In this document: one piece after another, positions 32,741 through 48,979 of the stretch
How positions within the stretch are numbered: the stretch's first letter is position 1
Layout of the letters: the number at the start of each line of letters is the position of its first letter
DNA from: Bryobacterales bacterium
Lineage (GTDB): Bacteria; Acidobacteriota; Terriglobia; Bryobacterales; Bryobacteraceae
Assembly: GCA_020854055.1 (NCBI GenBank)
Contig: JADZGD010000149.1
Coordinates: 1-64,000 of the forward strand
DNA length: 64,000 bases
Reading direction: 5' to 3'
Position numbers and translations under genes: made by a program
Notes under the pieces: model-generated
What the model saw: only the letters and a program-made list of their open reading frames with translations
Told to the model about the DNA's origin: nothing
Database searches by the model: none

Positions 32741-35394
32741 CCGCTGCGGGAACGTCCTTTGGACTGGCTCAAGTCAGAACCAATGAGGCAGTACTGATCT
32801 AAGGCGAACAACACGGCGGATTCCACGCCGCTCTCTAGCGCGGTGGCGACTTCCTTGCTCCACGGAGTCGATGGGTCGGAAATCCCCACTAGATGACTGC
32901 GCTGTGTCCATGGAAATCCAACCTCGCTGCCAAACAGAATCGACGAGCGCGCCAGGTTTAGATCACGCTGAAGCGTAAATGTGAAACTCTCGGTCTTCAG
33001 GCAATCCAGGCTTGCGGCAGTCCAGAACTCGCCGGCGAAATTCACCGCTCGGTTGAAGGCCGTCGAATTGACATCCGTCGGATAGAGAACCTCGAAGCGG
33101 CAATCGGGATAGCGCTGCTTCACAAATTGCATTAGTTGGACGGTGAACTCGCCGGCCAGCCGCCGGTAAACACCGGTTTCGTCCTGATACTCTGCCGGGT
33201 CTACGCGCTCATTCGGTATCCTTCTCGCGGTCCGGCCAAACTCGGTGGAGAATACCTGGTCCGTGTAGGCGTCACAAAATGGCATGCCGGAGCCATCATC
33301 TGGAAAGTACCACCATTGCACCTCGCCAAACTGTAGGTAAGGACGCACGCCGGCCTCCACCATCAACGTGGCGCAATCCAGGTAGACTTGCCGCCAGAAA
33401 GCGATACTCGTTGGCGAAAAGTTTGTCTGGATCGCTGGCGTCTGTAACTGTACCGGGTTTCCGCTTGGATACCGCTGGGCAATGCCGGCTTCCGCGCTGG
33501 GGTCGCCGTGTTGTAACTCCATGCTAAATGCGCATGTGGCCCCAATGCCTAGGTTATCCAGTGCACGCAGGTACGCCCGGGTCCAATCTCGCGCCGCCCG
33601 GTTCATTCGAGGCTGTGCGGTTAGGTCCGTCCTCCATACGCCATCCACTCCGGCTTGAACCGTCTCTGGCGTGCCGGAGAATGCAGGCCCGCCTCCGCCC
33701 ACACTCACATCCACCTGATTGCCCGCGGCGCCCATCATTCTCGCTTGAATCGAGAGCGCCGCTTGGGAGGCGCTCGCCCAGACCGAAGTGTAGCCCTGGT
33801 TCAACCGCAACGACAATGCCGTGGCGATTGTCTCCGCGGTATCGCCAGGGTGTACCAGGTGCTCAATCCGGCCGCCAGCCAACTGCAGCACAACGGTCGA
33901 ATTTGGCTCGGGATTTCCGCTGAAACTGATTCTCTTCACCGCGTATCGAAAGCCGTTCGGAGCAATCTCATAAAACCACAGCGCCCCGACATAGTGATTA
34001 GCGCGGCCGGTGAATCCGAGAGACCGGAGCATTCCAGCCGTCCTCTCTGCGGGCAAGGCGATAGCGTGGTCGGTATCCCAGTCCGTCGCTAAAGTGCAGC
34101 GCGCCAGCTTCGCGCACTCTGTCAGCTCTTCGCTTGGCACGGCGGCTTCAAAATAGTCGAAGAACACGGTCTCCGTGCTGGCGCCATCATGGCGCAATGT
34201 CACGACATGAGTGCCAACGGAAAGCGGGCCAAGCGGAATGCGAACCAAGGTGTCTTCGCCGGCCAATCCAAGATCAATCCGCGTCTCCACCCCATCGACC
34301 GTGACCAGAAGTGGCCCGCCACTCTCCGCGCGGCGCGTGCCAAGAAAACCAATCGAAGACGTAGCGGTGGCAAATCGAATCTCCGCTGACTCGCCAGGGA
34401 TGGACGTAAATGCGAGCGAGCCGCCGGAAAAATTGCCATGGGCGATTTGCCAGCCGGAACTCAAGCTCACTTCCGCTGAGTCATTCTCAAGACGCCTTGA
34501 TTCAGGTCCGGCTAATTTGTAGCGGCGATTGCTGCCGGAAACCGTCCAGTTTGATACCTCGACTTCGAACTCGGTACGCTCAAACTCGGCTGGTTGCAGG
34601 TCTGCCGCATACGTCCACCGCATTTTGCGAACCCTATCCATCGGGAACGGAAACTCGCTGAACGGCAGCTCGATATGCCACCGTGCCGGCGAACTGCCGC
34701 CCTGCAGAGTTTGTATCGGGTGACTCCACTGTTCAGAGGCTGCTCCGGCCACATAGCTGTATACGCCGATTCGATTTCCGTTTGAGCCGGCGCTACTCTC
34801 TTTTGACTCTAGCCGAATCTTCGCGCCTTCCCACGTGGCGCTCAGATAACGTGAGGAGCTATTGATGCTCCTTCCAATCTGCTCGATGACGCTATCTATC
34901 GTATCGTCGTAGTAGTTCTGGTGTGTATAGTGCTCCCCGCAGAAAGCGAGTCCGGCATAATCGCCTTGAGTGATCGTTCCGCTCAATTCAAATTCGCACC
35001 AGGCATCTTGGTAACTACCTTCGCATGGCGTCGCATAGTCCCGCAGTAGGACCAGGTACGGGTCTGCGCCGCTCGCATCAGTCCAGACTCGCAGATAGGG
35101 CCACGGTTCTGCCGGGTACACGTCGGAGTCGATGGGAACACAATTGACCCTTCGCTCGTCATAGCTCAGAGTCAGGCCACTCAAATCGCCATCCGGCAGA
35201 TTCCGGAACCAAGGGTGTTCAAAGACATTATCGCGGTTCCACTCAACTACCGCCCAGTCAAATTGCTGCCGCCAACTACCTGACACCACAAAACCCGAGC
35301 TACTTGCACCGCTCATTGCGGCAATCGCAGACGGCCGTTCAAAGTAACACTGCAGATCCTGATCCGGGCGCAATTTTTCGAGATGCTCAGCCAT
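32725..35394 (-). CDS. Phage tail protein with sheath-like repeats and C-terminal TIM-barrel-like domain
   Basis: An 889-residue protein, last in the particle cluster. The N-terminus has ASSSGFVVSGSWRQQFDWAVVEWNRDNVFEHP. Two similar modules resemble a small domain of phage tail sheath-like proteins: DDTIDSVIEQIGRSINSSS...GSNGNRIGV, and GDTAETIATALSLRLNQ...GAAGNQVDV. Between them is a beta-rich region. The last ~350 residues look like a glycosidase-type TIM barrel (RDWTRAYLRALDNLGIGATCAFSMEL, YLQFGEVQWWYFPDDGSGMPF with a Glu in GE, RFEVLYPTDVN). It may be a host-contact or wall-binding tail fibre. GAGGGCGGA precedes the ATG. Its 3' end overlaps the convergent exported-protein gene by 16 bases. 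Confidence 0.75.
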   Translation of the reverse strand: MAEHLEKLRPDQDLQCYFERPSAIAAMSGASSSGFVVSGSWRQQFDWAVVEWNRDNVFEHPWFRNLPDGDLSGLTLSYDERRVNCVPIDSDVYPAEPWPYLRVWTDASGADPYLVLLRDYATPCEGSYQDAWCEFELSGTITQGDYAGLAFCGEHYTHQNYYDDTIDSVIEQIGRSINSSSRYLSATWEGAKIRLESKESSAGSNGNRIGVYSYVAGAASEQWSHPIQTLQGGSSPARWHIELPFSEFPFPMDRVRKMRWTYAADLQPAEFERTEFEVEVSNWTVSGSNRRYKLAGPESRRLENDSAEVSLSSGWQIAHGNFSGGSLAFTSIPGESAEIRFATATSSIGFLGTRRAESGGPLLVTVDGVETRIDLGLAGEDTLVRIPLGPLSVGTHVVTLRHDGASTETVFFDYFEAAVPSEELTECAKLARCTLATDWDTDHAIALPAERTAGMLRSLGFTGRANHYVGALWFYEIAPNGFRYAVKRISFSGNPEPNSTVVLQLAGGRIEHLVHPGDTAETIATALSLRLNQGYTSVWASASQAALSIQARMMGAAGNQVDVSVGGGGPAFSGTPETVQAGVDGVWRTDLTAQPRMNRAARDWTRAYLRALDNLGIGATCAFSMELQHGDPSAEAGIAQRYPSGNPVQLQTPAIQTNFSPTSIAFWRQVYLDCATLMVEAGVRPYLQFGEVQWWYFPDDGSGMPFCDAYTDQVFSTEFGRTARRIPNERVDPAEYQDETGVYRRLAGEFTVQLMQFVKQRYPDCRFEVLYPTDVNSTAFNRAVNFAGEFWTAASLDCLKTESFTFTLQRDLNLARSSILFGSEVGFPWTQRSHLVGISDPSTPWSKEVATALESGVESAVLFALDQYCLIGSDLSQSKGRSRSGYFEL

Positions 35395-35401
35395 TCCGCC
35401 C

Positions 35402-38400
35402 TCACACTCGAATCGTCACGGTCAAATCACGCCCCGGACTAGCTCCGGAAGACTGCGGCACGCTCGTGATATTCAATCCAAGAGTGCCCTTCGTTGGCAG
35501 TGGCGCCAACTGTTCCCCAGGCAGCGAAGCGGAGGTCGTAGCGCCGGCGGGAATCGTGACTGTGCAGTACAGGGCATCATTCAGGACGATTTGGACCACG
35601 ATGTCGCCAGTGCTGGATGGCGCCGTCACGGACGCAAAGACATCGCGCACGCTGGTAGCCTCCTGAATAATAAGCGGTGGTGTCGCGTTGTTCTCAATGG
35701 CCAACGGGCCGGCTACCTGCAGGCACAATTGCCCCCCTCCGTAGGTTCTTAGCCCTCCTCCGGCCTGGGTGAGGAAGGTTTTCCAACTCGTTGGACTGTT
35801 TCCCTGGTTGTTCGTGACGTAAAACGTTGCTGCCACCAACGTGGCTGACGAAAGGTCGATCGAAGTACTGTAACTGCTAGCTGATAGAGATCCGAAAAAG
35901 CCCTTGGGAAAACCAACGGTGACTATTTTGCGCTTAAGCTGAATAAGTGTCGCAGCTTCGTCGTGTGCCGCGCTTTCAGTGCCATATAAGCCCCGGGAAA
36001 CATGATACAGCCCGCTGAGCGCGTCGATCTCATCGATCCTCACAATTTCTCCGTCGATCTGTAGCAGGTCGTTGACCAGTACCGGCCGTGGCGCGGAGAC
36101 CGTGAGAATGCCATCGTCCGCGTTCACTGCGGCCGAGAGCCGCGCAGGGGTATTCGCATCCAAGTCGTCTCGAAAATGCAGTCCTAGTGTGCCAGCCTGA
36201 ATGGACCGGGTATTTGCCAGCGTATCGAAGTGAACATTGCTTAGTTCAACCAACCGGCGCCCAATCGGCGTGAGGTCAAACTGTGGTGCGCCAGCGACGT
36301 CGCGATCTTCATCGCCGGAGCCGCCGATCGTCCACTCAATGAGTGGAGAGAGTTCGTATGCGGACTCTCGATCCCCAAGATTCGCCGTCCGAAGAGAGAC
36401 TTCCAGGATCCGCCCAGGCTCATTCGGGATATCGAAAGCGGCGAAAGGTCCTGAACTCGAGGCTCCGTACCTCCAGCCGGATTCCGAGACAGTGAACCTG
36501 CTCTCCACCGTCGGTAAGACGGTCCAGGGCTGGCTGAGTTCTATCGTCTGTTCGGTGTTTGATATGATCTGCCGTTCTTGGCCCGCCCCAGGGCCGGCGG
36601 AGATCCGGAGGATCATCCCGCGAAGGGCGTCAGTGGTCGAGCTCAACTGACTGCAGGTGATACTTCTGGTGGTGGCGCTGGTTACCGCGCTCTCGGGGCG
36701 AGTGCGTGTTCGCCAGTAAATATTGGTGTGATCGTAGTTGTTATCGGGGGGCGGTGCGGTACCGGCTGGAAGGCCTGAGTCTTCAAAAGTAAGACTCAAT
36801 GGAACGTGTTCGGCCACGCGGGCCATAATCCATGGGTTTACACCGCGGTACACGTTGAAGGTGCTTGCGTCGCGGGGAAAACTGAGCCCCGTGAGAATAA
36901 TCCTGTTATTCTCGCTGGACATGGGTGTATGTGCTACTACGGTGAAGGAGAGAGCGGATTCCGCTCCTTCGGCCGTAACGCCGGTAACTGCGTAATAAAG
37001 CGCCGCGCCACTTGCCACCATCCCACCCTCGGTGTCGATTGTTGGCGAAAGCGCGATAAGGGGAATTCCCGCCATGGATGAGGAGGCGGTCGTCGGCGCA
37101 AGAAATTCGACGCTGAGGGTAAGTCGCACCGCCCCATTTGCGTCAATGGTGCTAACTTCGCGCAATTGAATCGCGTTAGTGAGTGGCTTGGGGAGGCCAG
37201 TGGTCGAACTGGGTTGGCGCCAGGATCTCGACGTGGCGGCAGTGTTGTCCTCATACCACGAATCATCGTGCAGTTGGGCGGTGATCGTCATTGTCCGGTA
37301 GTTGGTACCCGGAGACAGGTTGAGAACGCGGAACAACTGCCTGTCCAGCGCCTCTCTGGCGTAAGTTAGCGTGATCAGATCCCCAGGCATCAAGCCGATG
37401 CCCTTGACGCTGGTCTCAAAGGTCACGTAGCGGTTGCCCCGTACAGAACGGTTCAATTGCCGCCGTAGAAGCCTGAGTGCCTGGCTGAAATTCGGAATCC
37501 CCAAAGCCGTCACGCCAGTGTCGACCTCTTGGCGGGTCACAAGATAATCATCCGTATCCAGCAGAGAAAGGCTGTCCTGCTGGTATTCGTTGTGCTCATC
37601 CTGGAATTCGATACTGAGACGATTTGGGGTTTCGGCGGAACTGCGCGACCAGAAGCGAATCAGCGGCGCGCCGCTTGGCGAGCAGAGGATCCCGCCGTCG
37701 CCGTGCGTGCCGTCACCAAACTGATAGGCCGGCCACCCGTTAGCCAGTGCTTCCGTGCTGTTGCTTGTAGGCGCCTTGGTTGGCTGCTGCACCGCCAGAC
37801 TGGACTCAACACGAAGGCGGAGTAATCCATTCCCGCCGAAGCACAGGTACAGTCCTGAGCCCGCTCGGATGCCACGGACCACGTCTCCGGCGCTTCTGCG
37901 CTTGGTCAACGCGAGGTTGCACTGGTACCTGGGTGTGGTGGTCTCGTTCCCGAGGCTGTCGACTGCCAGAATCCGTTCATCACAGTACGCGGCGGTTGAC
38001 GCAAACGAAACAATATCGATCTCTTCTGTCGTCCAACCGGCGCGCCTTAAGACATCCAGGATAATCCAGGCCGGATTATTGGTAAACGTCTCGCCCAGAC
38101 TCGTTCCGGCGGTATCGAATCGCTCGAGCAGCTTGCCCTGTGCGAGAACCCGGATGTGCGGAACGGCCGTGCCGTCTGCAATCCGGCTGGGAACTGCGAT
38201 CGACAATACAGCCATGCTTCCGTAGGGGTCGCCCTCCGGAAAATTCGGATCAAATGCTCCGGTCCGGTCACCCTGGGTGGCCATGTTAAACCAACCGGTT
38301 GCCGTCATATCTCGCCCGGCGACGCCCTCCGGCACCTCGATGTCGTTGACCAGTAGCTTGAGCACACCCTGCATTCTGCCGGCTCCCAGCAACACCTCCA

Positions 38401-39262
38401 TCCGGGTGAGATTTCCATCGCTTCTGGCAAAAACAATCACCGGAGCCCACCACGCCGTTCCATAAACTAGTGGAACGAAATCCTCATATCGAGCCGCATT
38501 TTCTACTGGCGCTGAGGCGTGGCTTTCCCTCGCGCCGTAGCTACGCACGTCAATCGCTGAGGGGAGATACTCAATCCCGCCGAAGCGGCGTGCCGGATCG
38601 CCAAACATGCCTCGCGCTTCGCAGTCTGCCCGCGTATAGTTACACGTGGTGAATGGCGTGCCACTATCCAACCGTCCGCATCCGCCGGGAATGTCCGCGG
38701 AATATCCACACCGGTAAAACGGCGAATAGCTTCCGTGCTGACCCCCATCCGCTGCTTCGGCGCGCTGCTCGGCCGTCGTCGGAAAGATCCAGGGGCACCG
38801 CCGCTGAATACGCACATCGGGTAGCAAGAGCCGTTGTAGCGACATGCGATTCGAAAAGGTTAGGCGGAAGGTTTCCTCGGTAATTTCGTCGGGTGGATTG
38901 GCAACTCCCAGGAATACGACGCTCGTCTCGCTTGTCGGCACACCGGCCTCAAGGTCGAAGAACACGAACCGAACGGTGAGTCTGGCGCCTTTTAGGCCCC
39001 CTCCGGCCTCCAGTTCGGACAATCGCCCATCGGCATTGGCCAGAACTACCGATATTCGCCCGGTTCCGTCGATGCCGTCCACCGTTCCCGAGCGAAGTTC
39101 AAAATCACTGTGCCTGAGTATGCGCGGCTCATACTGTTGTCCCCCGGCGGTGACCGTATGTGTGCACCAGCGCTCGATCTGGCCGCTGGCTAGTGCGCAC
39201 TCGAACAACAGCAACGGGCAGTCCGTCTGTTCCTGATCTTTGAGTTCTGCGATGCTCTTCAT
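35402..39262 (-). CDS. Tail-tip protein: gpL/BR0599-like N-terminus fused to gpJ-like baseplate hub
   Basis: This is the largest gene of the cluster (1286 residues). Residues ~1-240 match the minor tail protein L/BR0599 type: a beta domain (LFECALASGQIERWCTHTVTAGG) followed by a cysteine cluster at 156, 185, 195, 207 and 214 and FGGIEYLP, the pattern that binds an iron-sulfur cluster in lambda gpL. From ~250 onward it reads as a tail-hub protein of the gpJ/GTA gp15 class (FVPLVYGTAWWAPVIVFAR, LLVNDIEVPEG, IILDVLRRAGWTTEEIDI, KGIGLMPGDLITLTYAREALDRQLFRVL), then fibronectin-like segments. The gene starts one base after its upstream neighbour's stop. Confidence 0.75.
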   Translation of the reverse strand: MKSIAELKDQEQTDCPLLLFECALASGQIERWCTHTVTAGGQQYEPRILRHSDFELRSGTVDGIDGTGRISVVLANADGRLSELEAGGGLKGARLTVRFVFFDLEAGVPTSETSVVFLGVANPPDEITEETFRLTFSNRMSLQRLLLPDVRIQRRCPWIFPTTAEQRAEAADGGQHGSYSPFYRCGYSADIPGGCGRLDSGTPFTTCNYTRADCEARGMFGDPARRFGGIEYLPSAIDVRSYGARESHASAPVENAARYEDFVPLVYGTAWWAPVIVFARSDGNLTRMEVLLGAGRMQGVLKLLVNDIEVPEGVAGRDMTATGWFNMATQGDRTGAFDPNFPEGDPYGSMAVLSIAVPSRIADGTAVPHIRVLAQGKLLERFDTAGTSLGETFTNNPAWIILDVLRRAGWTTEEIDIVSFASTAAYCDERILAVDSLGNETTTPRYQCNLALTKRRSAGDVVRGIRAGSGLYLCFGGNGLLRLRVESSLAVQQPTKAPTSNSTEALANGWPAYQFGDGTHGDGGILCSPSGAPLIRFWSRSSAETPNRLSIEFQDEHNEYQQDSLSLLDTDDYLVTRQEVDTGVTALGIPNFSQALRLLRRQLNRSVRGNRYVTFETSVKGIGLMPGDLITLTYAREALDRQLFRVLNLSPGTNYRTMTITAQLHDDSWYEDNTAATSRSWRQPSSTTGLPKPLTNAIQLREVSTIDANGAVRLTLSVEFLAPTTASSSMAGIPLIALSPTIDTEGGMVASGAALYYAVTGVTAEGAESALSFTVVAHTPMSSENNRIILTGLSFPRDASTFNVYRGVNPWIMARVAEHVPLSLTFEDSGLPAGTAPPPDNNYDHTNIYWRTRTRPESAVTSATTRSITCSQLSSTTDALRGMILRISAGPGAGQERQIISNTEQTIELSQPWTVLPTVESRFTVSESGWRYGASSSGPFAAFDIPNEPGRILEVSLRTANLGDRESAYELSPLIEWTIGGSGDEDRDVAGAPQFDLTPIGRRLVELSNVHFDTLANTRSIQAGTLGLHFRDDLDANTPARLSAAVNADDGILTVSAPRPVLVNDLLQIDGEIVRIDEIDALSGLYHVSRGLYGTESAAHDEAATLIQLKRKIVTVGFPKGFFGSLSASSYSTSIDLSSATLVAATFYVTNNQGNSPTSWKTFLTQAGGGLRTYGGGQLCLQVAGPLAIENNATPPLIIQEATSVRDVFASVTAPSSTGDIVVQIVLNDALYCTVTIPAGATTSASLPGEQLAPLPTKGTLGLNITSVPQSSGASPGRDLTVTIRV

Positions 39263-39263
39263 T

Positions 39264-40019
39264 TCACGCTTCTCTCGCCGTGATGTGGACTGTCATGGAA
39301 CTGCTGTCGGTGCCATCTTCCGAGACTTCCAGTTCCTCGGCGTCAAAGCGCGCCGCCCGATGGATCCCATTGATTGTGGTCGTTCGTTTGTAAGTGGAAC
39401 TGCCAGTCTGTGCTTCTACCTGCATCTCGACGATTTCAACGGCAGCGCCAGGAGGAATCTCCACGCCAAATGCAACGCCTTCCGCCGGGGCTTCACCGGC
39501 GCTGCTGAATGCCAATGACTCCCAATCTGTCCCCACGCCAAACTGCGTCCGGGACTCCACGCCATCACTCAACCGTAATGCCGAGAGTGGCATAGGGGAG
39601 TAGCCTCGAATCCGAAAGCTCATGCAGTAACGAAACCAGGCAGGCGCGGCCAGCACCTGAGTGATCCGCTCAGTGCTTGCTCCGCTATTCACCAGAGATG
39701 TGCCACTCGCTTCAAGTCCCGCTCCCTTAATCCACACCTGTTTTCCAAAATCGTCACTCCACAGGAACAGGTTCGCAGTCGGATCGATAAACACAAAGGG
39801 AATTGCGCCACCGCGGCATTCACTCCAAAGGGCGAGGACCTGGTCTCGCTCGGTTGTGTTTAGAGCGGCCAGGGATAACTGCCACTGTAGGCTGCTCGAA
39901 GTGACTCCGCGCGCCTTGAACTGGGTTCCATCCATGGACTCATTGACTACCGTCCGGACACTCCGCCGCTTGGTGATGGGAAATTGTGCCAGTTGGGGAA
40001 AGTAAGTCACCCTAGTCAC
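39264..40019 (-). CDS. Phage distal tail/minor tail protein
   Basis: A 251-residue beta-rich protein. It begins VTYFPQLAQFPITKRRSVRTVVNESMDG and contains QWQLSLAALNTTERDQVLALW and PFVFIDP, a pattern like that of minor tail proteins that attach near the tip. The start is a GTG at 40019 overlapping the previous stop by eight bases, with GGAG four bases upstream; GTG 40010 is an alternative. Its place between a short tail protein and the hub fits a distal tail role. Exact function not established. Confidence 0.65.
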   Translation of the reverse strand: MTRVTYFPQLAQFPITKRRSVRTVVNESMDGTQFKARGVTSSSLQWQLSLAALNTTERDQVLALWSECRGGAIPFVFIDPTANLFLWSDDFGKQVWIKGAGLEASGTSLVNSGASTERITQVLAAPAWFRYCMSFRIRGYSPMPLSALRLSDGVESRTQFGVGTDWESLAFSSAGEAPAEGVAFGVEIPPGAAVEIVEMQVEAQTGSSTYKRTTTINGIHRAARFDAEELEVSEDGTDSSSMTVHITAREA

Positions 40020-40368
40020 CGTTCTCCCGGATCGTAACTGAAGTTACGATTCGAGCCTCACCGCGCCACAAAAGCGTCAGCGTATCCTGTTCCAGGCTGC
40101 AGTTCGGATAAACCGCGCCGTCAGCCGGATCACGAAAGGAAAAGGTACCGAATCTTCCTCCGATCAGAACAAAGAAGTCATCGAGGCTCTTGGCTTCACT
40201 GTCGTCAAGCAGATCCAGACGCAATGTCCACCGGTGAAGCCCTCTCGCGCTGTCGGCAAACCGCTGTTCACTTCCATCGGCAAAACGAAGTACGTTGCTC
40301 CGGTGGCGGTTGCCTCTTAGCATCGGATACTGAGCGATTGCCCCGGTCTTGAGTGTCGGAAAGTCCAT
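40012..40368 (-). CDS. Phage minor tail protein (DUF2460/lambda M-like)
   Basis: A 118-residue protein with FADGSEQRFADSARGLHRWTLRLDLLDDSEAKSLDDFFVLIGGRFGTFSFRDP, a pattern shared by tail assembly proteins that lie after the tape measure gene. Ends IRENGD. Translational overlap with the next gene. Function by position and pattern only. Confidence 0.68.
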   Translation of the reverse strand: MDFPTLKTGAIAQYPMLRGNRHRSNVLRFADGSEQRFADSARGLHRWTLRLDLLDDSEAKSLDDFFVLIGGRFGTFSFRDPADGAVYPNCSLEQDTLTLLWRGEARIVTSVTIRENGD

Positions 40369-40379
40369 TGTCTTTCGCC

Positions 40380-40931
40380 TCAGCCGACCAGGTCGGTCAA
40401 TGGGTGGGAGTTCAGTAACGCCTTCTTTACGGCATCGGCGATATCGTCACTGCGGTCAAGAAATGACCGGCTGTCCATCGCCTGAACGTTGATCGTCACC
40501 ATCGGCGCCGCTGAATCGGAGTTGGAGTTCGGCGGTAGCATTCGAGGAATGCCGCGATCGTCATAGTCGATCGCTCCTACCTGTTCTCCCCCTTGGAACA
40601 GACCTGTGTTCGCCCGAATTGCGGGTGGCAGCGCAAACTTTGGCAGCGGCGTTACTGCGGCCGATTCCTCCCTGCCTCCGAATAGCGAAAGGAGGCCGGA
40701 AACGAGCGGAAGTCCACCTAGTACCGTCTTGAGGACCGGAGTGACGGCATCGTACGCATTGTCGCCCGCGCTCTGCTCAGGCCGGCTCGCAACAGTGTTA
40801 ACCGTTGCGGTGGAACGCCCAAGGCTTTCTCTAAGCGTTGACCCAAAGGCCGTGAGTTCGGCCGCTACCTCTTTAGTTGGCTGATACAAGGTGCTGAGAA
40901 GCTCACCGAGTTGTTCGTTGATCCCTGCCAC
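40380..40931 (-). CDS. Short tape-measure-like tail protein
   Basis: Only 183 residues, where a tape measure protein would be expected (after the frameshifted chaperone). The C-terminal third, MVTINVQAMDSRSFLDRSDDIADAVKKALLN, is the ending seen on many tape measure proteins, and a hydrophobic segment (VLKTVLGGLPLVSGLLSLFG) occurs in the middle. If it is the only tape measure, the tail would be very short, about as in the Rhodobacter gene transfer agent, whose tape measure protein is also around 200 residues. The start is GTG with GGAGG upstream, overlapping the frameshift extension by 29 bases. Confidence 0.68.
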   Translation of the reverse strand: MAGINEQLGELLSTLYQPTKEVAAELTAFGSTLRESLGRSTATVNTVASRPEQSAGDNAYDAVTPVLKTVLGGLPLVSGLLSLFGGREESAAVTPLPKFALPPAIRANTGLFQGGEQVGAIDYDDRGIPRMLPPNSNSDSAAPMVTINVQAMDSRSFLDRSDDIADAVKKALLNSHPLTDLVG

Positions 40932-41241
40932 GTCCTGCCTCCGCTAATGCTCTGTCGATTAACACAAACGCCTCGACCGTCTTCGCTGGTAGAGCCCGGT
41001 AATCGGCCGTGCCCAGCAGCCGCCAGGCAAAGTACTCCTCCAGCCACAGCCGGCTATCGGGCGATATAGAACTGCGCGGGCAAGTGGTAAGCTCGAGGCC
41101 GTTTACCGCCCACACTGGTCTCTCGCTGCGTTCTGCGCCGAGGAGCCCGCAATTCCTCGATTTCTCCCATCCGTTCGTCCGGCATTCGTCGCATCCCCAC
41201 CCGGCCTGGGCGTCACTGTAGAAATGGAGTGCGACAATGAG
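40903..41241 (-). CDS. -1 frameshift extension of the tail-assembly chaperone (112 codons)
   Basis: This frame stays open from the slippery site to a stop at 40903 and has no start codon with a ribosome binding site of its own; the GTG at 41115 is internal. Its product is protein-like throughout: HFYSDAQAGWGCDECRTNGW near the N-terminus, then a cysteine in RNCGLL and one in LTTCPRSSISPDSR, and a helical end (LWLEEYFAWRLLGTADYRALPAKT, AFVLIDRALAEA). The four cysteines (17, 20, 31, 54 of the extension) suggest a zinc site. Fused to the first 121 residues of the chaperone it gives a 233-residue protein, the analogue of lambda gpGT. Confidence 0.8.
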   Translation of the reverse strand, partial: LIVALHFYSDAQAGWGCDECRTNGWEKSRNCGLLGAERSERPVWAVNGLELTTCPRSSISPDSRLWLEEYFAWRLLGTADYRALPAKTVEAFVLIDRALAEAGRGRDQRTTR

Positions 41242-41603
41242 TTTTTTCGTTCCCTCTCAGAGAGTGTGCATTCGCGCTTTATGGCTGAGACGATCTCCGC
41301 GCACAGCGTCTCCGGTCCTGACAGGATCACAGCGTCTGGTGTGCAGTCCAGTCCGTCAATAGTGAGGCCCGAAATGGCAAGCAAGCCCCAGGCCAGATAC
41401 AACCGGTCGATTTCGCCGGCTAAAGCGGCGGCTGCCGCACGGCTTTCCATCGAGCGGCCCGCTTCGTGGAATTGAAGGGCTCCTAACAGGTCTGCAATGC
41501 GTCGCGTAAGCTCCAGTCGGCCGGCAAACGTAACGCGTCGGATCGAATAGCGGACTCCCGGGAAGACTTCGGAGTTGAACTCGAGCGAGGTGGCGAAGTC
41601 CAT
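41103..41603 (-). CDS. Tail-assembly chaperone, zero-frame product (gpG-like)
   Basis: A 166-residue protein starting at ATG 41603, right after the tail tube gene. The first ~121 residues look like a folded helical protein (VRYSIRRVTFAGRLELTRRIADLLGALQFHEAG, then LYLAWGLLAISGLTIDG). After the A AAA AAC heptamer the zero frame continues 45 residues of low-quality serine/arginine-rich sequence, while the -1 frame becomes protein-like. Position between tail tube and tape measure genes matches the G/GT chaperone pair of siphophages. Confidence 0.8.
   Translation of the reverse strand: MDFATSLEFNSEVFPGVRYSIRRVTFAGRLELTRRIADLLGALQFHEAGRSMESRAAAAALAGEIDRLYLAWGLLAISGLTIDGLDCTPDAVILSGPETLCAEIVSAIKRECTLSERERKNSLSHSISTVTPRPGGDATNAGRTDGRNRGIAGSSAQNAARDQCGR
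41241..41247 (-). promoter_or_regulatory. Programmed -1 ribosomal frameshift site (A AAA AAC)
   Basis: On the minus strand the heptamer A AAA AAC is in the correct phase: the first A is the third base of a CGA codon, followed by AAA and AAC. A slip of -1 enters the frame that stays open to 40903. GAGAGGGA lies a few bases upstream and could act as a stimulator. A six-base homopolymer is also a place for sequencing error, but the site occurs exactly where tail chaperones carry such signals. Confidence 0.8.
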
Positions 41604-41606
41604 AGC

Positions 41607-42779
41607 CTATCCGAAAGCGACAACCACTTCGTCGTCGTGCAAACCCTGTGCGCGGGAATTCGTAAAGCGCCACTGCAGGCGGGTCTCTCGATCATCAAAT
41701 GCCGGTACGTCCGGCACTGCACTCTTCAGATAAACGCCAAACAGTTGCCCTGGCGATTCACCCAGTTGCAAAAATACACTGATCGGCGACCTTTGTCGCG
41801 CCGCCTGGTAAAGCGCTCGACTCGCCTGCTCATCCTCTTGATAGAGATCAAAGGAGGCTACTACTTCGCGCTCGCCGGGTATCACTGCGCGCGGGCCTTG
41901 CGATCCAAACTCGCGATCTCTCAATTCCAGGTGATTGTTGAGCGTTATCTGCGCTGCCGTTACTGTGAAGAACTGCGAAGGGGAACTCCCGAACCACGCC
42001 TGACCGAGGTTTCCCGGCACTACGCTCGCTGCGCTCAGCGCGACTGGGGGTTCGTTCGGATAATTCGCCAGCCCGCCCTGAGCGCCCTGAAATGTCAGGC
42101 TATCGATCAATTCCCGCCCAGGCCCCTTGAAGTGAAACTCGTGGTGGCACCCGTTGATGCTGATTTGCATCGTGTCCACTGCCGCTCCGGTCAAAAGACG
42201 ATGGACTGCGCTCGAGGGACTCCAATAATCGAACAGACTCACGCTGCTGACGGCGCTTCCCGGCGTATAGGCCACCGTAGGTCCCAGTGGGAACCCTGGC
42301 CCGGCGGTCTTTGTGAGCGGCGCGTTGATTCCTACGGTCGTTGCGTCGATCAGCCCGCTAACGAACCGGATCTCTCCGCCAATTGTCAGCGCCTGGCCGA
42401 CGTTGAGTCCGTGCGGCGCCGCAAAGTGAATGGTTGACGGATCTGGCAGGCCGGCGATCACGGCGCCCGGAAATGGCAGCGCCGGTCCGCCGAGCGTTGC
42501 CCGAAATAGCGGGCCATACGGCGGCTCTTTTGATTGATCATCCCAACCGTAGAGGTAGGTGCGAAAATCGAAGCTGGTATGGCGCCTGAATCCGCTCGGC
42601 CGCCCGGCAAAGGTTCGCGTTCCCGACTTGGGTTGGGGGCATGGGCTGTCGATGGATTCGCTGATGCTCAGCTTCGATCCAAAAACGCGCGCGTCAGCGG
42701 TTAAGGCCGGCACGATTCCGTAACTGGATTCGGCCGCGACATAATATCGATTATTATTGGAGAGAATGTATCCTGGCAT
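41607..42779 (-). CDS. Phage tail tube protein
   Basis: A 390-residue protein from ATG 42779, which has AGGG about seven bases upstream; a GTG at 42794 is less likely. It begins PGYILSNNNRYYVAAESSYG and has a typical split tube fold: KLSISESIDSPCPQPKSGTRTF near the N-terminus and ISINGCHHEFHFKGPGRELIDSLTFQG in the middle, separated by an inserted proline/glycine-rich beta domain (about residues 105-195), then a second half ending in LQWRFTNSRAQG. The position before the chaperone supports the role. Confidence 0.75.
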   Translation of the reverse strand: MPGYILSNNNRYYVAAESSYGIVPALTADARVFGSKLSISESIDSPCPQPKSGTRTFAGRPSGFRRHTSFDFRTYLYGWDDQSKEPPYGPLFRATLGGPALPFPGAVIAGLPDPSTIHFAAPHGLNVGQALTIGGEIRFVSGLIDATTVGINAPLTKTAGPGFPLGPTVAYTPGSAVSSVSLFDYWSPSSAVHRLLTGAAVDTMQISINGCHHEFHFKGPGRELIDSLTFQGAQGGLANYPNEPPVALSAASVVPGNLGQAWFGSSPSQFFTVTAAQITLNNHLELRDREFGSQGPRAVIPGEREVVASFDLYQEDEQASRALYQAARQRSPISVFLQLGESPGQLFGVYLKSAVPDVPAFDDRETRLQWRFTNSRAQGLHDDEVVVAFG

Positions 42780-42786
42780 ATCAACC

Positions 42787-43281
42787 CTAAGCACTCACAT
42801 CGATCGGCATACTCACTTTTGCGCTTTGGACATAGTTCTTGCCGCCGGCTTTTGCGGGACCGTAGGTAACGTCATACTCCCCCGCGTAAGAGAGACCTAA
42901 CCCCCAACTGCCACGGCTGACGTCGAGCAGGCGCGTCAGCGCTTCGACGTAAAAGTGGAGTTGGTCGGTCAATCCCGGCAGCGTGTCACTTGTCACGCGG
43001 ACGTCTACCGCAACCTTCACCGTGCCGGAGAACGAGCGGAATTTCTCTCGTTGGGTATTGGAGATCTTTTCGCAGTAGACATTGACCGCCGGATAGCGAA
43101 AGCCCGTCAATTGTTCCAGCGCGTCGGTACCCGCATTCGCCTCGACGATCTGCCCGGCGTCGAGAGTGGGCATCACCACCCCGTCAACCATCGAAAGCGC
43201 GGCGATGCTTTGTGCCAGACCTTGCGGCGAACGCAGCAGTTCGGCAACTCGTCTTGTACTTGCACTTCCAGCTCGAGCCAT
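42787..43281 (-). CDS. Tail completion/terminator-like phage protein
   Basis: A 164-residue protein from ATG 43281, with AAAGG just upstream; a longer frame from 43341 would overlap the previous gene. It contains RSPQGLAQSIAALS, FRYPAVNVYCEKISNTQREKFRSFSGTVKVAVDVRVTSD and LTDQLHFYVEALTRLLD, the pattern of small proteins that close the head-tail junction. Role by position and pattern. Confidence 0.68.
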   Translation of the reverse strand: MARAGSASTRRVAELLRSPQGLAQSIAALSMVDGVVMPTLDAGQIVEANAGTDALEQLTGFRYPAVNVYCEKISNTQREKFRSFSGTVKVAVDVRVTSDTLPGLTDQLHFYVEALTRLLDVSRGSWGLGLSYAGEYDVTYGPAKAGGKNYVQSAKVSMPIDVSA

Positions 43282-43285
43282 ACTG

Positions 43286-44026
43286 TCAGCCTTTCCAGAT
43301 TCTGCGGTCGACGGTGATGTACTGATCTGGCTGTTGGCCATCGCCGGCGCCGGGGCCGTTGCGAATGCCTGTCGGGGGCAGTGTCCAGGTTGTGTCTATA
43401 GGAAGAGGAGTTGGCGTTTGCAGCGCCCCATTACTATCTGAAGTCCCGACATACACCGTCCATCCAGCGGTTGAGGCCGGCGGAACACCCGGCGCCACGG
43501 TTAGGGTGTGCCCGTCGGGTGCATCGATGACGGCGAACTCGCTAGCCGCCGACTCATCGCCCTTCGCGTTCACCCAGGCAGTCGTTACATAGTAGGTCGC
43601 TCCGGGCTGAGTTCCTGCAAGCAACCCGGCTTCGGGACGGTGCGGGCGCGGTACGGGCTCTTGGACTACGCCTACGCCTGCATCGTACAGCTCGCGCTCG
43701 GCGCTAAGGCTCTCGCTCGCATAGAGCCGCCACTTTGCCTCGTAACGGTCGTTTAGGCTACTGTGGTAACCATCGCGATAGGTCTCGGCAAGCGTGTGCA
43801 GCACCAGCCAATGGCGAAGTTCCGCCGTCACTACCACGTTGCTCGCATCCAGTCCGTCGCTACCATTGCGTTTGAGAAAGATCTCTAGTTTTGTGCCAAT
43901 GTGACGTCGCGCTAACGCGAATTTGGCCGTCAGGTCGATACCGAGCGACGATGCAACTGTCTGGATTGAGCTTTCATAGTGTGTAAGCTCAGCGAGCCAT
44001 AGAGGCGGCTGATCAGTGAGAAGCAT
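43286..44026 (-). CDS. Head-tail connector-like protein with a C-terminal fibronectin-like domain
   Basis: A 246-residue protein with GGAGGGAAC before the ATG. The first ~125 residues are helical (ELTHYESSIQTVASSLGIDL, HWLVLHTLAETYRDGYHSSLNDRYEAKWRLYA), as in gp6-type connectors. The rest is a beta domain (ATYYVTTAWVNAKGDESAASEFAVI, GWTVYVGTSDSNG) like fibronectin III or Ig folds displayed on phage particles. A connector carrying such a domain is unusual. Confidence 0.65.
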   Translation of the reverse strand: MLLTDQPPLWLAELTHYESSIQTVASSLGIDLTAKFALARRHIGTKLEIFLKRNGSDGLDASNVVVTAELRHWLVLHTLAETYRDGYHSSLNDRYEAKWRLYASESLSAERELYDAGVGVVQEPVPRPHRPEAGLLAGTQPGATYYVTTAWVNAKGDESAASEFAVIDAPDGHTLTVAPGVPPASTAGWTVYVGTSDSNGALQTPTPLPIDTTWTLPPTGIRNGPGAGDGQQPDQYITVDRRIWKG

Positions 44027-44038
44027 GTTCCCTCCAAA

Positions 44039-44365
44039 CTAGGACTTGAGCTTCTTCGTCTGCAGACGAAGGCCCTGCAGGTCGGATTCTGACAACAACG
44101 CAAACTGAACCCGTTGGCTGGCAGCATGCTCCTGAGCCCTTCGTGCCGCGTCTGCCTGCTCGGCGTAGAACCGGGCCGCTTCCTCTTCACTCGCCAGGCG
44201 TGCCCGGCCTTCGACAATCATTCTCGCCGCCGCCTCGCGGGTAACCTCGGTAAAAAGTCCCGCGCGCCCGCCATCGGGTGTCTCTGAACTGACGACAATC
44301 ACATAGGGTGTCGCGATCGCGTTTTTGGCATTGGCAATCTTCTGATAGAACGCTTTCAGATCCAT
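44039..44365 (-). CDS. Small phage protein of unknown function
   Basis: A 108-residue protein preceded by AGAGGAA. A short beta-like start (PYVIVVSSETPDGGRAGLFTEVT) is followed by a long charged helix (EEEAARFYAEQADAARRAQEHAASQRVQ) and a basic end. It lies between coat and connector genes, where decoration or head-completion proteins are usual. Not recognised further. Confidence 0.6.
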   Translation of the reverse strand: MDLKAFYQKIANAKNAIATPYVIVVSSETPDGGRAGLFTEVTREAAARMIVEGRARLASEEEAARFYAEQADAARRAQEHAASQRVQFALLSESDLQGLRLQTKKLKS

Positions 44366-44434
44366 CGTGTTCCTCTCTTTTGCGAAGACATTGGAGTGGC
44401 AGTTGAATCCCGGCCGGATCCCGGACTGCCGCGT

Positions 44435-44480
44435 CCCCGTCCGGGCCTGTCATCGGTTGAACGGCCGGGCCCGGACGGGG
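44435..44480 (-). other. Strong 13-bp hairpin after the coat protein gene
   Basis: Arms CCCCGTCCGGGCC (44435-44447) and its exact complement (44468-44480) with a 20-base loop lie 16 bases after the coat gene stop. No T-run follows on the minus strand, so it is not a classical terminator. It may protect the coat messenger or reduce read-through into downstream tail genes. Confidence 0.7.
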
Positions 44481-44495
44481 AGTGGGCAGCCATGA

Positions 44496-45407
44496 TTAGC
44501 TATTCACCTGGACGCCGAACGCATTGCGCAGTATTCCGGTACCGTACAGCACGTCCACCGTGAACTGCTGGGCCAGCGTGTTCGGTTGGTAAGTCATGAC
44601 GACGCGCATGCCGAAATTGCCAAACTCGGCATACTCGGCAATCGCGCCGGTTCCGGGTAGTGGCTGTGGCAGCCGGCGCATCACCAGCCCGATGGCGCTC
44701 TTGGCGAAGGCCAGGTTATGTACATTCACGGGAGACGAGCCGGTTTTTGAAATGAATTGAGAGCGAAAGACGAAGAAGTCCTTCAACTTGCCGACTGTGC
44801 CGTCCACCAGCGTGCGCAACCCGGCGTCACCGGCCGAGGAGTACTCGCTGAAGCGCGGAATTTGACGTAGGGTCGAATAGGACCCTGAGTCAACCACCAA
44901 ATACTTCTGCATGCTCGCCGGAACCCTCGCCTCGAACAGAGCCGTCTCCGCCGCTTCGAGTGTCGCCTCGCTCAACGACTGCCCGGCCGTGCCAACCGGG
45001 GTGTTTGCGGTGAACTGGGAGTACGACCCGAGCAGGTCACGCTCGATTCTTTCAGCCAATGCGATTACCGCCGGCTGCATGTACAGTTTGAGAAGGTCGG
45101 GTACCGCGATAACCTTGGTTACATCGGGAATCTGGAACGTCGCCTCGGCGTGTGTATTCAGCACGATCTGAGCGTTCCCAACGTTCGGATTCTGCGTCTG
45201 GACGGTCCCGCCTTCGGCAATGTTATTCGCCACTAACGTCGGCGGTATTGCCACGTTCACGGTGTCACCGGCGTTGGCCAGCGTTGGCTCAAAATCACGA
45301 TTGGCGAGGTTACCCATGACAAGGTTGCCCATCAGCGCTGGCAGCGCATCCGCCGCGACCAGCTTTACAATGGCATTCGCCAAATTGGAAGAAGTAATTG
45401 CAGGCAT
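44496..45407 (-). CDS. Major capsid protein (P22 coat-like)
   Basis: A 303-residue protein beginning PAITSSNLANAIVKLVAADALPALMGNLVMGNLANRDFE, then GDTVNVAIPPTLVANNIAEGGTVQ, QIPDVTKVIAVPDLLKLYMQPAVIALAERIERDLL and KYLVVDSGSYSTLRQIPRF, ending YGTGILRNAFGVQVN. This is the pattern of P22-family coat proteins of HK97 fold. No maturation protease gene is present, in line with scaffold-guided assembly. It lies right after the scaffold gene. Confidence 0.82.
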   Translation of the reverse strand: MPAITSSNLANAIVKLVAADALPALMGNLVMGNLANRDFEPTLANAGDTVNVAIPPTLVANNIAEGGTVQTQNPNVGNAQIVLNTHAEATFQIPDVTKVIAVPDLLKLYMQPAVIALAERIERDLLGSYSQFTANTPVGTAGQSLSEATLEAAETALFEARVPASMQKYLVVDSGSYSTLRQIPRFSEYSSAGDAGLRTLVDGTVGKLKDFFVFRSQFISKTGSSPVNVHNLAFAKSAIGLVMRRLPQPLPGTGAIAEYAEFGNFGMRVVMTYQPNTLAQQFTVDVLYGTGILRNAFGVQVNS

Positions 45408-45452
45408 GTTGTGTTCTTGCTCCTGTTCTCAAATCCGCGCTCGCGCCGGGCT

Positions 45453-46022
45453 CTAGCTGGCACGAAGCGCCTGTGAAGCCACGCGCGCGATCTCTTGCCG
45501 CACGCGATCCATTTCTTCGGCGCTCATTCCCGGGCGAATCTTGTCCAGATCCACCGTTGCGGGCGCCGTGGTGCTTCGGCTGTTCCCCTGAGTGCCGGAT
45601 CCTCCGGCGATTCTTGCCGGTAGTAACTCCGGATTCTCATTAACGAACTGATGTAGAAAATCCGGCAGCGCAAGCTCGTCTTTGCCTGCTCGCGCCATCA
45701 GCCGGCCATCATCGGTCCGGATGATCTCGTCGCGCACCGCCTTGAAGGCAAGATCGATCTTCTGGACACCCAGCCGCTGAAGTTCGCTTCGAATCTGTGA
45801 GTTCCGGTCCGCTTCTTCGGCCAGTTGTCTGTTTCTGCGGTTCTCATCTTCTAACTCATTCAGCCGCTGCTCGAGCGCCTCCCGGCGTCTGCGCTCCTCC
45901 ACGAGTTCAGCTTTGTAGGCGGGCTCCGTCCGCGCTTGTTCCGAACGGATGAATTCGCTGATCGCCTCCTGGATGATGGCCCGGATATTGACGGCGCCGG
46001 GCTCTGTTCTTGCTTCGTCCAT
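45453..46022 (-). CDS. Phage scaffolding protein
   Basis: A 189-residue acidic, highly charged protein with AGGAGCAT before the ATG. It has a central coiled coil (AELVEERRRREALEQRLNEL and onward, about residues 38-85) and a flexible tail rich in G/S/T with EEMDRVRQEIARVAS near the end. Coiled-coil proteins directly before the coat gene act as internal scaffolds for capsid assembly. Confidence 0.75.
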   Translation of the reverse strand: MDEARTEPGAVNIRAIIQEAISEFIRSEQARTEPAYKAELVEERRRREALEQRLNELEDENRRNRQLAEEADRNSQIRSELQRLGVQKIDLAFKAVRDEIIRTDDGRLMARAGKDELALPDFLHQFVNENPELLPARIAGGSGTQGNSRSTTAPATVDLDKIRPGMSAEEMDRVRQEIARVASQALRAS

Positions 46023-46048
46023 ATGCTCCTTCCTGAAGTCTTATGGTG

Positions 46049-47428
46049 TTATGAGATCCCGCTCTCGATTTCCGCGGAGATCTGGTCTTTGAGGTCCTGC
46101 CGGACATCACACAGATACTTCAACGCCAGCTTCTTGAAGATCTGCTTGCGCAATGTGGGTGAGTAGATGCCAAGATCGAGCAGCTGTGTGGCATCTGCTA
46201 TCTCGGCGCTGAAGTCCCCGATGTCAAATTCATCGAGTCCCGACAGATCGATCGTGAGATTATCCGAACGTGCTTCGGCAATCCACCGAAGCACTCTCTT
46301 CATCGAATCCTTCACCACATCGCCGTAGGCTCGTAGCACCTCTTGGGTTACGGCAAAGTCACGCTGCTTGCTTAATCCGGACTGTGACAGCGTCACTCCG
46401 TTTCCGGCCTGATTCAGCGCGTAACACACCCGGTAGATTTCGTTTTGCAGCCGCGTGAGGTTGTCTGCGGCGATCTGATAGACCTTGCCTTCGGGCTCGG
46501 TCCATCCGAACCGGTCTTCCGGGCCCAGTTGGATATAGTAGGATTCTCCCATTACCTGTTTGAAATCGCGTGCCGAGTAGACCACCGGCGTAGCAAACAA
46601 GCCCATCGTCAAAGCCCACGACAGGGCGTTCGACTTATTGAAATGCTCAAGTTGCAAGGAGCCGGCCCGGTTCATCAGCCAGAGGCCGTCTCCCGCTCGA
46701 AGCTCAGCCAGCGGTACGCGGCGCTGTCGCGCCAACCCGTGATATCCTTCGTCCACGACGGCCGGCGTAGCCTGTTTGCCATGCTCCTCCGTATGGCTGT
46801 AAATGCGGAACCGCTGCTTGTCGTAATACACCCATCGTGTTTGCTTGGTGCCGGGATCTCCTGTGATCGACGGCTGGCACGCTCTTTGACTCTTAAGAAC
46901 GACCCACTCGAAGCCTCCGTGTTCATCCAGGCTCCAGTTGATTAGCTGTTCCGGCGCATAACTGACCAGGTAGGCCCGCGACATGCCGAGTTGGTCTTCA
47001 ATTGCCCGGTTGGCGGCTCGCTCTGTTGCGCGGGGAAAGTCAATCAGTGCGTACGAGCGTCCGCAGACCAGTGCATCGATCAGCGCCGACCGGAAGAAGT
47101 CGGTGAAGGAGGTTCCGCGCAGGTCGCAGTCGTCCATGAACGTGGCGAAAAAGCTCCGGCTGTTCTCCTCCGCGCCATCAAGGTGCAGGATCGGTTCACG
47201 GCGGAATAGCGTCGCCGCATACCAATCGATGATTGAGCCGATATAGTTCTCGTAGTACACGTGGCTAAGCCGCTCAGAGTAAATTGCCAGGGGCTCGCGG
47301 TTGCGTTGGAGCAGGTAGCTGGCGGCGGCCGCCCTCATTTGCTCTCCGCCAACGTATAAGTCCCTGTACCGCTTCCACATTGCGGTGTTGCGGGCGTACT
47401 CTGGATGCTCACGATCGATATCAAACAC
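46049..47428 (-). CDS. Phage portal protein (DUF4055-like)
   Basis: A 459-residue portal. GTG 47428 is preceded by AAGGAG at nine bases. Portal features include the N-terminal helical part (ARNTAMWKRYRDLYVGGEQM), YYENYIGSIIDWYAATLFRR, YLVSYAPEQLINWSLD, LEHFNKSNALSWALTMGLFATPVVY and the crown/stem helices (VTQEVLRAYGDVVKDSMKRVLRWIAEAR). It forms the dodecameric DNA gate of the head. Between terminase and scaffold genes, as expected. Confidence 0.83.
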   Translation of the reverse strand: MFDIDREHPEYARNTAMWKRYRDLYVGGEQMRAAAASYLLQRNREPLAIYSERLSHVYYENYIGSIIDWYAATLFRREPILHLDGAEENSRSFFATFMDDCDLRGTSFTDFFRSALIDALVCGRSYALIDFPRATERAANRAIEDQLGMSRAYLVSYAPEQLINWSLDEHGGFEWVVLKSQRACQPSITGDPGTKQTRWVYYDKQRFRIYSHTEEHGKQATPAVVDEGYHGLARQRRVPLAELRAGDGLWLMNRAGSLQLEHFNKSNALSWALTMGLFATPVVYSARDFKQVMGESYYIQLGPEDRFGWTEPEGKVYQIAADNLTRLQNEIYRVCYALNQAGNGVTLSQSGLSKQRDFAVTQEVLRAYGDVVKDSMKRVLRWIAEARSDNLTIDLSGLDEFDIGDFSAEIADATQLLDLGIYSPTLRKQIFKKLALKYLCDVRQDLKDQISAEIESGIS

Positions 47429-47474
47429 GTATGTCCACTCCTTGTCTTCATCGGCCCCTTGTTTGGTGGCTCTG

Positions 47475-48797
47475 CTACAACAGCCGTTGTGCTTGTTCGC
47501 CGGCGCTCGGTTTTGGACCGAACTCCGCCCACAGCAGGTAACCGGCCGCGTCTGCCAGGTGAGTCAGCGATGGATCGCTCGCTTTGTCGACCTCACTCGA
47601 ATCGCCCCGATAGCGGACCTCTTCGAAATCCCGGATAAGTCCCCGGCAGCGTTCGGCTACGAACAGGCGCGACGTCCCATTTGCATCGCGCAGGAGCCGG
47701 TTAACCAGGCGCACGCGGTCCCGCACCGGCGGGTTCGAGCGCCCGACGCGGAAGCGGTACGCTCCCCGGCAGCGCTGGGTGAAGAACTCTCGAATCATCT
47801 GGTGGTCCGAGGTCCCGCTGGTCTGCATTCTTGCGCCCGTCGCGTCGGCGTACATCTCGATTCCGCCCGGATGATCCCCGTATGTTTCGTAGAAGCGTTC
47901 ACAAGCGTCCAGTGTTCCCACGCGTTGTAACGATTGCTCGTCCACTACGTATACGGTCTGATCGCGAATTTGCGCGACCACCGAGCTCATTGGATCGACG
48001 TTGAAGTCCAGCGACCATAAGAGTGGAAGATTGCCGATGATGTCCGTGGTCAGGACATTTACTTGCCGGTCGAAGGCGTCATACACCAGGTTCCCGGCGG
48101 CGCTCAGATATTCACCTCGAACTTCCTGCTCATAGAGCTTGGCGTCATAACTGTTCTTCAGGCGCTCGTAGAAGTCGGGTACCGCATTCAGTAGGTAGCG
48201 ATTTTCAAAAGGTGCCGCCAGAATCGTATCGTAGCCATTCACTCTGTTCCTGATGAAGCGCTTGTATACCCAGTCAAATCCTTTTGGCGTCCACACCGCG
48301 AATCCGCACAGGCGGCGCGCCTTCGGATCGCGCAACCTTCCCTCCAGCCTCAGCCACGCCTCCTCGCGCGCATAGGTGAGTTCATCGATGCCGAACCAGG
48401 CTAGGTTGGTCCCGCGGAGCCGTTCGAATTCGTCCACCGATCGCAGCACGATCCTCGATCCGGTATCCGTCAGTTCAACGACGCCTTCACTCTTTAGTGA
48501 CTCGAATGGAATGTCGTTGCTTCGGAGGATGTGGAACAAGGCGGCTTGGGTCGCATCCCGAAGCATCGGATAGGTTGGTGCTCCCAGCAACCCCATCCGC
48601 CCCGGATTCTGATAGCTCATGCGGATCACTTCATGACACAGCGCCTGGCTCTTTCCGGACCCGATCGGGCCTGAGAACCCCTTGAAACGTGCTGTGCTTG
48701 CGTGGAACCGGAACTGTGAGGGCAGCGGATGATACGCTATGTTTTGGGAGCAGACTCCGTCTCTGATCGTTCGTCCCCCTCGTCCGGTTCTACCCAT
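47475..48797 (-). CDS. Terminase large subunit
   Basis: This 440-residue DNA-packaging motor has an ATPase domain with Walker A GPIGSGKS (43-50), Walker B LAWFGIDE (D138, E139) and APTYPMLRDATQ, then a nuclease domain with LWSLDFNVDPMSSVV and a later acidic segment (GGIEMYADATGARMQ). The ATG at 48797 lies inside the end of the upstream small gene, with GAGG four bases away. The motor appears intact, so the encoded particle could still package DNA. Confidence 0.88.
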   Translation of the reverse strand: MGRTGRGGRTIRDGVCSQNIAYHPLPSQFRFHASTARFKGFSGPIGSGKSQALCHEVIRMSYQNPGRMGLLGAPTYPMLRDATQAALFHILRSNDIPFESLKSEGVVELTDTGSRIVLRSVDEFERLRGTNLAWFGIDELTYAREEAWLRLEGRLRDPKARRLCGFAVWTPKGFDWVYKRFIRNRVNGYDTILAAPFENRYLLNAVPDFYERLKNSYDAKLYEQEVRGEYLSAAGNLVYDAFDRQVNVLTTDIIGNLPLLWSLDFNVDPMSSVVAQIRDQTVYVVDEQSLQRVGTLDACERFYETYGDHPGGIEMYADATGARMQTSGTSDHQMIREFFTQRCRGAYRFRVGRSNPPVRDRVRLVNRLLRDANGTSRLFVAERCRGLIRDFEEVRYRGDSSEVDKASDPSLTHLADAAGYLLWAEFGPKPSAGEQAQRLL

Positions 48798-48979
48798 TGC
48801 ACCTCGACTTTCTGCGGGATCTCTTCGTTCTGTAGCTCGAGCCTGAACTGCACTAAGCGGATATAGTCCGAAATTGACACTCTCGTTTTGTCATCTTCCA
48901 ATTTCGCTTCAGCGCGCGAGATGAGTCGTTCAATCAGAGACTCGGTGTTCGAACGCCGTTTACTGTTGCGTGTACTCAC
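48737..48979 (-). CDS. Small charged protein at the head of the particle cluster (possible small terminase)
   Basis: An 80-residue protein from GTG 48979: basic N-terminus (STRNSKRRSN), a helix with LIERLISRAEAKLEDDKTRVSISDYIRLVQFRLELQ and an acidic tail. It overlaps the terminase start by 61 bases. Position suggests a small terminase or packaging partner, but no helix-turn-helix is evident; it may be only a regulator or unknown protein. Confidence 0.55.
   Translation of the reverse strand: MSTRNSKRRSNTESLIERLISRAEAKLEDDKTRVSISDYIRLVQFRLELQNEEIPQKVEVQWVEPDEGDERSETESAPKT

Follow-up and report, generated by a model that had tools for sequence, protein, structure and literature searches.

A gene read in two overlapping frames lies on the minus strand of the stretch of 64,000 nucleotides of Bryobacterales DNA analysed here (contig JADZGD010000149.1), which is called the window below. 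Its upstream neighbour encodes a tail tube protein of 395 aa (41607..42794, minus strand; Phage_tube_2 PF18906, E 7e-9; phrog_290, E 2e-10), and its downstream neighbour encodes a short tape-measure-like protein of 183 aa (40380..40931, minus strand), identified by its position and a weak match to phrog_3779 (E 0.003), the counterparts of which in relatives are 158-231 aa long. It was in this position, between a tail tube gene and a tape-measure-like gene, that the original prediction, made from the letters of the DNA alone, placed a tail chaperone joined to a cysteine-rich extension by a programmed -1 frameshift. The zero-frame open reading frame (166 aa, 41603-41103, minus strand) runs past a slippery heptamer (A AAA AAC, 41247-41241, minus strand), which has the X XXY YYZ phase, to a stop at 41103. 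Its first 121 aa, including the heptamer, are here called the G part (41241..41603, minus strand), and homologues of this part were found in 30 related loci. Starting at the re-read C, the -1 frame is open for 112 aa, the T extension (40906..41241, minus strand), and ends with a stop codon at 40905-40903. A shift at the heptamer is thus predicted to produce a GT fusion of 233 aa, consisting of the 121-residue G part and the 112-residue T part. Re-reading of the frames bore out the phase of the heptamer as originally described, and the lengths given then for the open -1 frame and for the fusion, when recomputed, were the same. The window contains four copies of AAAAAAC on its two strands, and that at 41247-41241 is the single one flanked on each side by no fewer than 100 open codons, in phase upstream and in the -1 frame downstream. 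The zero-frame codon following it is TCA in place of the stop usual among homologues. The poor quality of the zero-frame sequence after the heptamer had been correctly noticed: the 46-codon tail is there because the stop was lost locally, a change private to the window.

The gene is part of a head-tail cluster of about 16 kb (32725..48979, minus strand), delineated by Pfam and PHROG matches. Read from 48979, the cluster begins with genes for a small terminase-like protein, TerL, portal, scaffold-like protein, capsid, a protein of 108 aa, head closure and a protein of 184 aa; these are followed by tail tube, G/GT, short tape measure, two DUF2460 genes, a Phage-tail_3 protein and a TIM-barrel protein, which ends at 32725. 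The adjacent DUF2460-type genes occupy 39264-40019 and 40012-40368, and the longer of them scores below the Pfam cut-off. Comparison shows the same gene order in 20 other genera, among which a TIM-barrel match is missing in four (regions G011, G024, G027 and G032), a small terminase match in several, a TerL match in one and a tape measure match in two. In region G044, about 3.5 kb is inserted between the tape-measure-like gene and the first DUF2460 gene. Across genomes the cluster is mostly 15.9-16.8 kb in size, with a G+C content close to that of its flanks. Searches with Pfam and PHROG found no integrase, replication or recognised lysis gene within it, and no phage integrase among the neighbour genes tested. 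Those neighbours that could be assigned to a family are host genes, such as prephenate dehydratase and a fused KDO transferase-LpxK; the latter joins KDO transferase (Glycos_transf_N) and LpxK in a single 782-aa reading frame at 29860-32208 of the window.

Is the split between the two frames a property of the gene or of this one sequence? T was detected in 35 of 61 related genomes, at one place per genome. In 31 loci G and T were aligned separately, and in all 31 the frame of T is -1 with respect to that of G, and T starts at the site. When the set was enlarged with 80 named genome contigs, 92 heptamer-bearing loci were obtained, of which 76 differ from one another within the 187 bases compared; the heptamer is the same, and the 0/-1 frames and the join are identical, in all 76 distinct stretches. 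Among IMG/VR contigs, the heptamer is kept in 39 of the 40 loci with both halves. The 40th is a contig that has G AGA AAC (L020/L095/L230, isolate K_DeepCast_250m_m1_110) and stands outside the 76-stretch set. In the homologous loci that have both halves, the 0/-1 arrangement holds, and A AAA AAC is present in all except this contig and one locus masked by N at the heptamer site; homologues that lack the heptamer, or have both parts in a single frame, had been named beforehand as the finding that would speak for a sequencing indel. More distant T homologues, from other families of the class and from second copies, mostly have one of two heptamers, A AAA AAC or A AAA AAT, and share this arrangement of frames.

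Taken alone, the window sequence would permit a sequencing or assembly indel, or decay of the gene, to have split one reading frame, but the comparison gives this no support: the same split occurs at the same base in independent assemblies of many genera, where the heptamer is fixed and is directly followed by a stop, and there is purifying selection in both frames. This candidate explanation is ruled out by the homologues, and we regard its probability as practically nil. That the frameshift is real and conserved is well supported by the aligned sequences.

Some individual loci may be mentioned here. The isolate K_DeepCast_250m_m1_110 is the sole close homologue to have lost the heptamer, and both its frames and its stop are still intact. 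Six divergent G/GT relatives (L291, L292 and L294-L297) keep the cysteine-containing T domain and have at the join either A AAA AAC or A AAA AAT; L291 and L292 come from other families of the class, L294 is a second copy, and L295-L297 belong to a single genus of the family. L293, likewise a second copy, lies at the end of a contig and is without a heptamer.

The codons around the join bear marks of selection. The Lys codon of the heptamer is AAA in 76/76 stretches, compared with 24% in nearby upstream codons of the same genes, and the Asn codon is AAC in 76/76, compared with a background of 73% in upstream codons of the same genes; the Arg preceding the heptamer Lys is encoded by CGA or AGA in 69/69, against a background of 16%. 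The zero-frame codon next to the heptamer is TGA, TAA or TAG in 67 of the 76 distinct stretches. Beyond codon bias, constraint on synonymous sites is strongest at the heptamer and in the arms of the two pseudoknot stems described below. In 12 close pairs, comparison of T in the -1 frame gives dN/dS values of 0.09-0.37 (median about 0.16), whereas values of 0.70-2.56 (about 1.4) result when this DNA is translated in the zero frame. The alignment of homologues thus finds the heptamer and the -1 frame both conserved and T under purifying selection in that frame, in support of the programmed -1 frameshift originally predicted.

The stop of G and the start of T nearly coincide, an arrangement that would also suit separate synthesis of T by re-initiation after the zero-frame stop. 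However, the first codons of T (CTN, mostly ATH, NTC, GCN) include no conserved ATG, GTG or TTG in the 76 stretches, re-initiation would not need the fixed heptamer codons, and nine stretches, including the window, have no stop at that place. We consider re-initiation highly improbable as the source of T.

On the 3′ side of the heptamer, a previously unreported H-type pseudoknot was found, consisting of an 11-bp stem 1 and a 7-bp stem 2, with compensatory changes in both. The 5′ arm of stem 1, GTCGCACTCCA (41225..41235, minus strand), begins 6 nt after the last heptamer base, and its 11 bases pair with bases 42-53 nt downstream, the 3′ arm TGGGGATGCGAC (41188..41199, minus strand), leaving a one-base bulge. 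In 69 sequences, 94.6% of the 759 cells of stem 1 are paired, compared with at most 50.2% when the partner is slid, and 22 cells are changed on both sides, compared with 6.2 in shuffles. For example, the third codon of T, which is GTC, CTC or ATC, is matched by GAC, GAG or GAT in the opposite arm. Stem 2 is formed by CCAGGCC within the loop of stem 1 (41203..41209, minus strand) and bases 69-75 downstream, for which the consensus is GGCCTGG and the window has GGATGGG (41166..41172, minus strand), a weakened arm. Here 84.5% of cells are paired, with 20 double-change cells compared with 7.7 in shuffles and compensated pairs such as CAAGCC/GGCTTG, CAGACC/GGTCTG and CAGTCC/GGACTG; several of the remaining sequences are able to pair one base out of register. 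The two stems together have 42 double-change cells and a covariation of 0.189, compared with at most 0.092 when slid. All these counts omit seven sequences with loop insertions, and they lean towards the structure because it was found and counted on the same sequences. In 36 gapless IMG/VR sequences not used for the discovery, which may partly overlap with the first set, 96% of the tested cells of stem 1 and 82% of those of stem 2 are paired. The duplex energy of stem 2 relative to shuffled loops agrees with its formation in 65 of 76 sequences and disagrees in the window. RNAalifold showed almost no structure on the gapless alignment, because it does not show pseudoknots and because the bulge in the stem shifts, whereas explicit pair counts did reveal the stems. 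The window copy has stem 1 intact and keeps 5 of the 7 pairs of stem 2 at the consensus register; because it has also lost the stop after the heptamer, it may slip differently from its relatives.

Since the site is a run of A, at which RNA polymerase is known to slip, a second product could also arise by transcriptional slippage. Six A are, however, short for efficient slippage by the polymerase, and the phase, the fixed C and a compensated pseudoknot 6 nt downstream are what tandem slippage by the ribosome needs and slippage by the polymerase does not. We therefore judge transcriptional slippage very unlikely and ribosomal frameshifting the preferred reading. The frameshift of the original prediction has stood, although that prediction overlooked the 3′ pseudoknot, the usual stop after the heptamer and the head-tail cluster common to most Bryobacterales genomes. 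With at least 76 diverged natural sequences exposing the heptamer, the stop, the spacer and both stems, the stimulation of frameshifting in bacteria becomes testable with compensatory mutants that are ready to use.

What kind of proteins do the two frames encode? Profile searches, also carried out member by member, assigned neither G nor T to a confident Pfam or PHROG family; there were isolated PHROG matches, two of them labelled tail assembly chaperone at E 0.09. Sequence searches of PDB chains gave nothing significant for either G or T, and tblastn of T against 50,697 phage records gave no match. AlphaFold models of both parts are confident (pLDDT 89.6 for T and 89.5 for G). The G model resembles the HK97 chaperone 2ob9, which ranks third with a Z of 6.4, a value below 8 that unrelated proteins can reach by chance, over 87 of 121 residues (rmsd 3.4, 10% identity) in one of the longest alignments in the list. 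The T model had no convincing match in Foldseek searches of PDB and BFVD with a second look by VIA, a result that does not establish a new fold. The cysteines of T noted originally as CxxC, C and C are all present, as C17, C20, C31 and C54, and are invariant in 61 sequences. They probably form a four-cysteine metal site, which may bind zinc; no known zinc fold was among the structural matches listed for T. Judged by these searches, T is a new sequence family, and the cassette adds to the known chaperones a family absent from Pfam and PHROGs.

Frameshifting in tail chaperones has long been known and is conserved across long-tailed phages (PMC5009743). The Bryobacterales gene resembles G/GT of lambda in its position between tail tube and tape measure, in a -1 shift near the end of G, in a heptamer of the X XXY YYZ type and in the fusion of T to G. 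It differs in being unrelated by sequence to the known families searched, in having a 3′ pseudoknot supported by covariation and, in most relatives, a stop right after the heptamer, and in the four invariant cysteines of its T. Because the frameshift is conserved, T is unmatched in the databases and the G model is like that of HK97, the gene appears to encode a chaperone of the lambda G/GT type that represents a new sequence family.

The process may be outlined as follows. Most ribosomes would terminate after translating G, which in most relatives means at the codon next to the heptamer. A minority would slip back by one base at A AAA AAC, presumably while paused by the H-type pseudoknot that starts 6 nt downstream, and continue into T to produce the GT fusion, so that the two products would be made in a set ratio. 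If the two parts act as those of lambda do, G would cover the tape measure protein, which is very short here, and T would bring in subunits of the tail tube. As an explanation of the whole, a programmed -1 ribosomal frameshift in a chaperone of the lambda G/GT kind, within a mainly vertically inherited cluster like that of a gene transfer agent (GTA), is very probably correct. The slip itself is of a known kind; less expected is its setting in a phage particle cluster apparently inherited by bacteria.

A homologue of the cluster capsid is present in 200 of 257 Bryobacterales genomes and in 73 of 84 genera, usually as one copy per genome. In a draw of 396 genomes from the phylum, there were only weak matches of 25-29% identity outside the order Bryobacterales, and most of the named matches belong to Bryobacterales or to Acidobacteria bins that are unplaced. 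In a tree built from eight proteins of the cluster, 6 of 17 splits also occur in that of rpoB, the maximum in 2000 permutations being 3, and the patristic distances of the two trees are correlated (r 0.69; Mantel 0/2000); some of the conflicts between them are supported. Most genera have different flanks, and some share flanking genes; the host genes flanking the cluster in the window are not shared among the other genera examined. The cluster appears to have been inherited mainly vertically, as it is largely congruent with rpoB though the agreement is partial.

It resembles RcGTA and the Caulobacter GTA in being a compact head-tail cluster of comparable size that is kept vertically, is mostly present once per genome and lacks genes for integrase and replication, and differs from them in belonging to the phylum Acidobacteriota. 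GTAs of the Rhodobacter type also have tail genes of the DUF2460 and Phage-tail_3 families along with a short tape measure, a further likeness. A GTA-like nature of the cluster is plausible, and we infer that particles may be produced and may carry a cargo. The fuller proposal, that this is a functional gene transfer agent of Bryobacterales in which the frameshift sets the ratio of two chaperones building a very short tail, is tentative, and we find it slightly easier to doubt than to accept.

Bryobacterales-specific "group (i)" proviruses, including that of KBS 96, were published in 2025 in Microbiome (PMC11924767). The IMG/VR record IMGVR_UViG_2522125054_000002, which is that of KBS 96 named in the paper, contains an exact 45-base capsid stretch of the KBS 96 locus (L108), and owing to this exact match the published provirus can be taken as the same element. 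The regions are described there as proviruses, and neither "frameshift" nor "gene transfer" occurs in the main text. The group is absent from the figure of prophage clusters in a 2018 survey of acidobacterial prophages. In the literature searched, mostly outside subscription journals, no description of a gene transfer agent in Acidobacteriota was found.

The frameshift could also operate, as described, in an ordinary prophage lineage, temperate or defective, that moves horizontally among Bryobacterales and is not a domesticated GTA. Publication of the elements as proviruses favours such a lineage, as do the partial agreement with the rpoB tree and the different flanks of most genera, and accessory genes could sit elsewhere in the genome. 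Against it stand a conserved cluster of nearly constant size, usually in one copy per genome across most of the genera, the lack of integrase, replication and recognised lysis genes inside it and of phage integrase among the tested neighbours, and its G+C near that of the flanks. In addition, at least 559 stretches in IMG/VR encode relatives of the cluster capsid, and the best 80 of these matches are on contigs of no more than 19.7 kb. A prophage lineage is a substantial possibility, which we nevertheless hold to be somewhat less than half probable. Under the preferred reading, that of a mainly vertically inherited GTA-like cluster, an order of abundant soil bacteria seems to have retained a particle of phage origin, which would be a candidate vehicle for the transfer of genes in soil, and many soil "virus" contigs in IMG/VR may be such chromosomal clusters. 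Two records labelled Arcobacter and Acidimicrobiia (L090 and L119) also contain clusters of the Bryobacterales type and are probably mislabelled metagenome bins.
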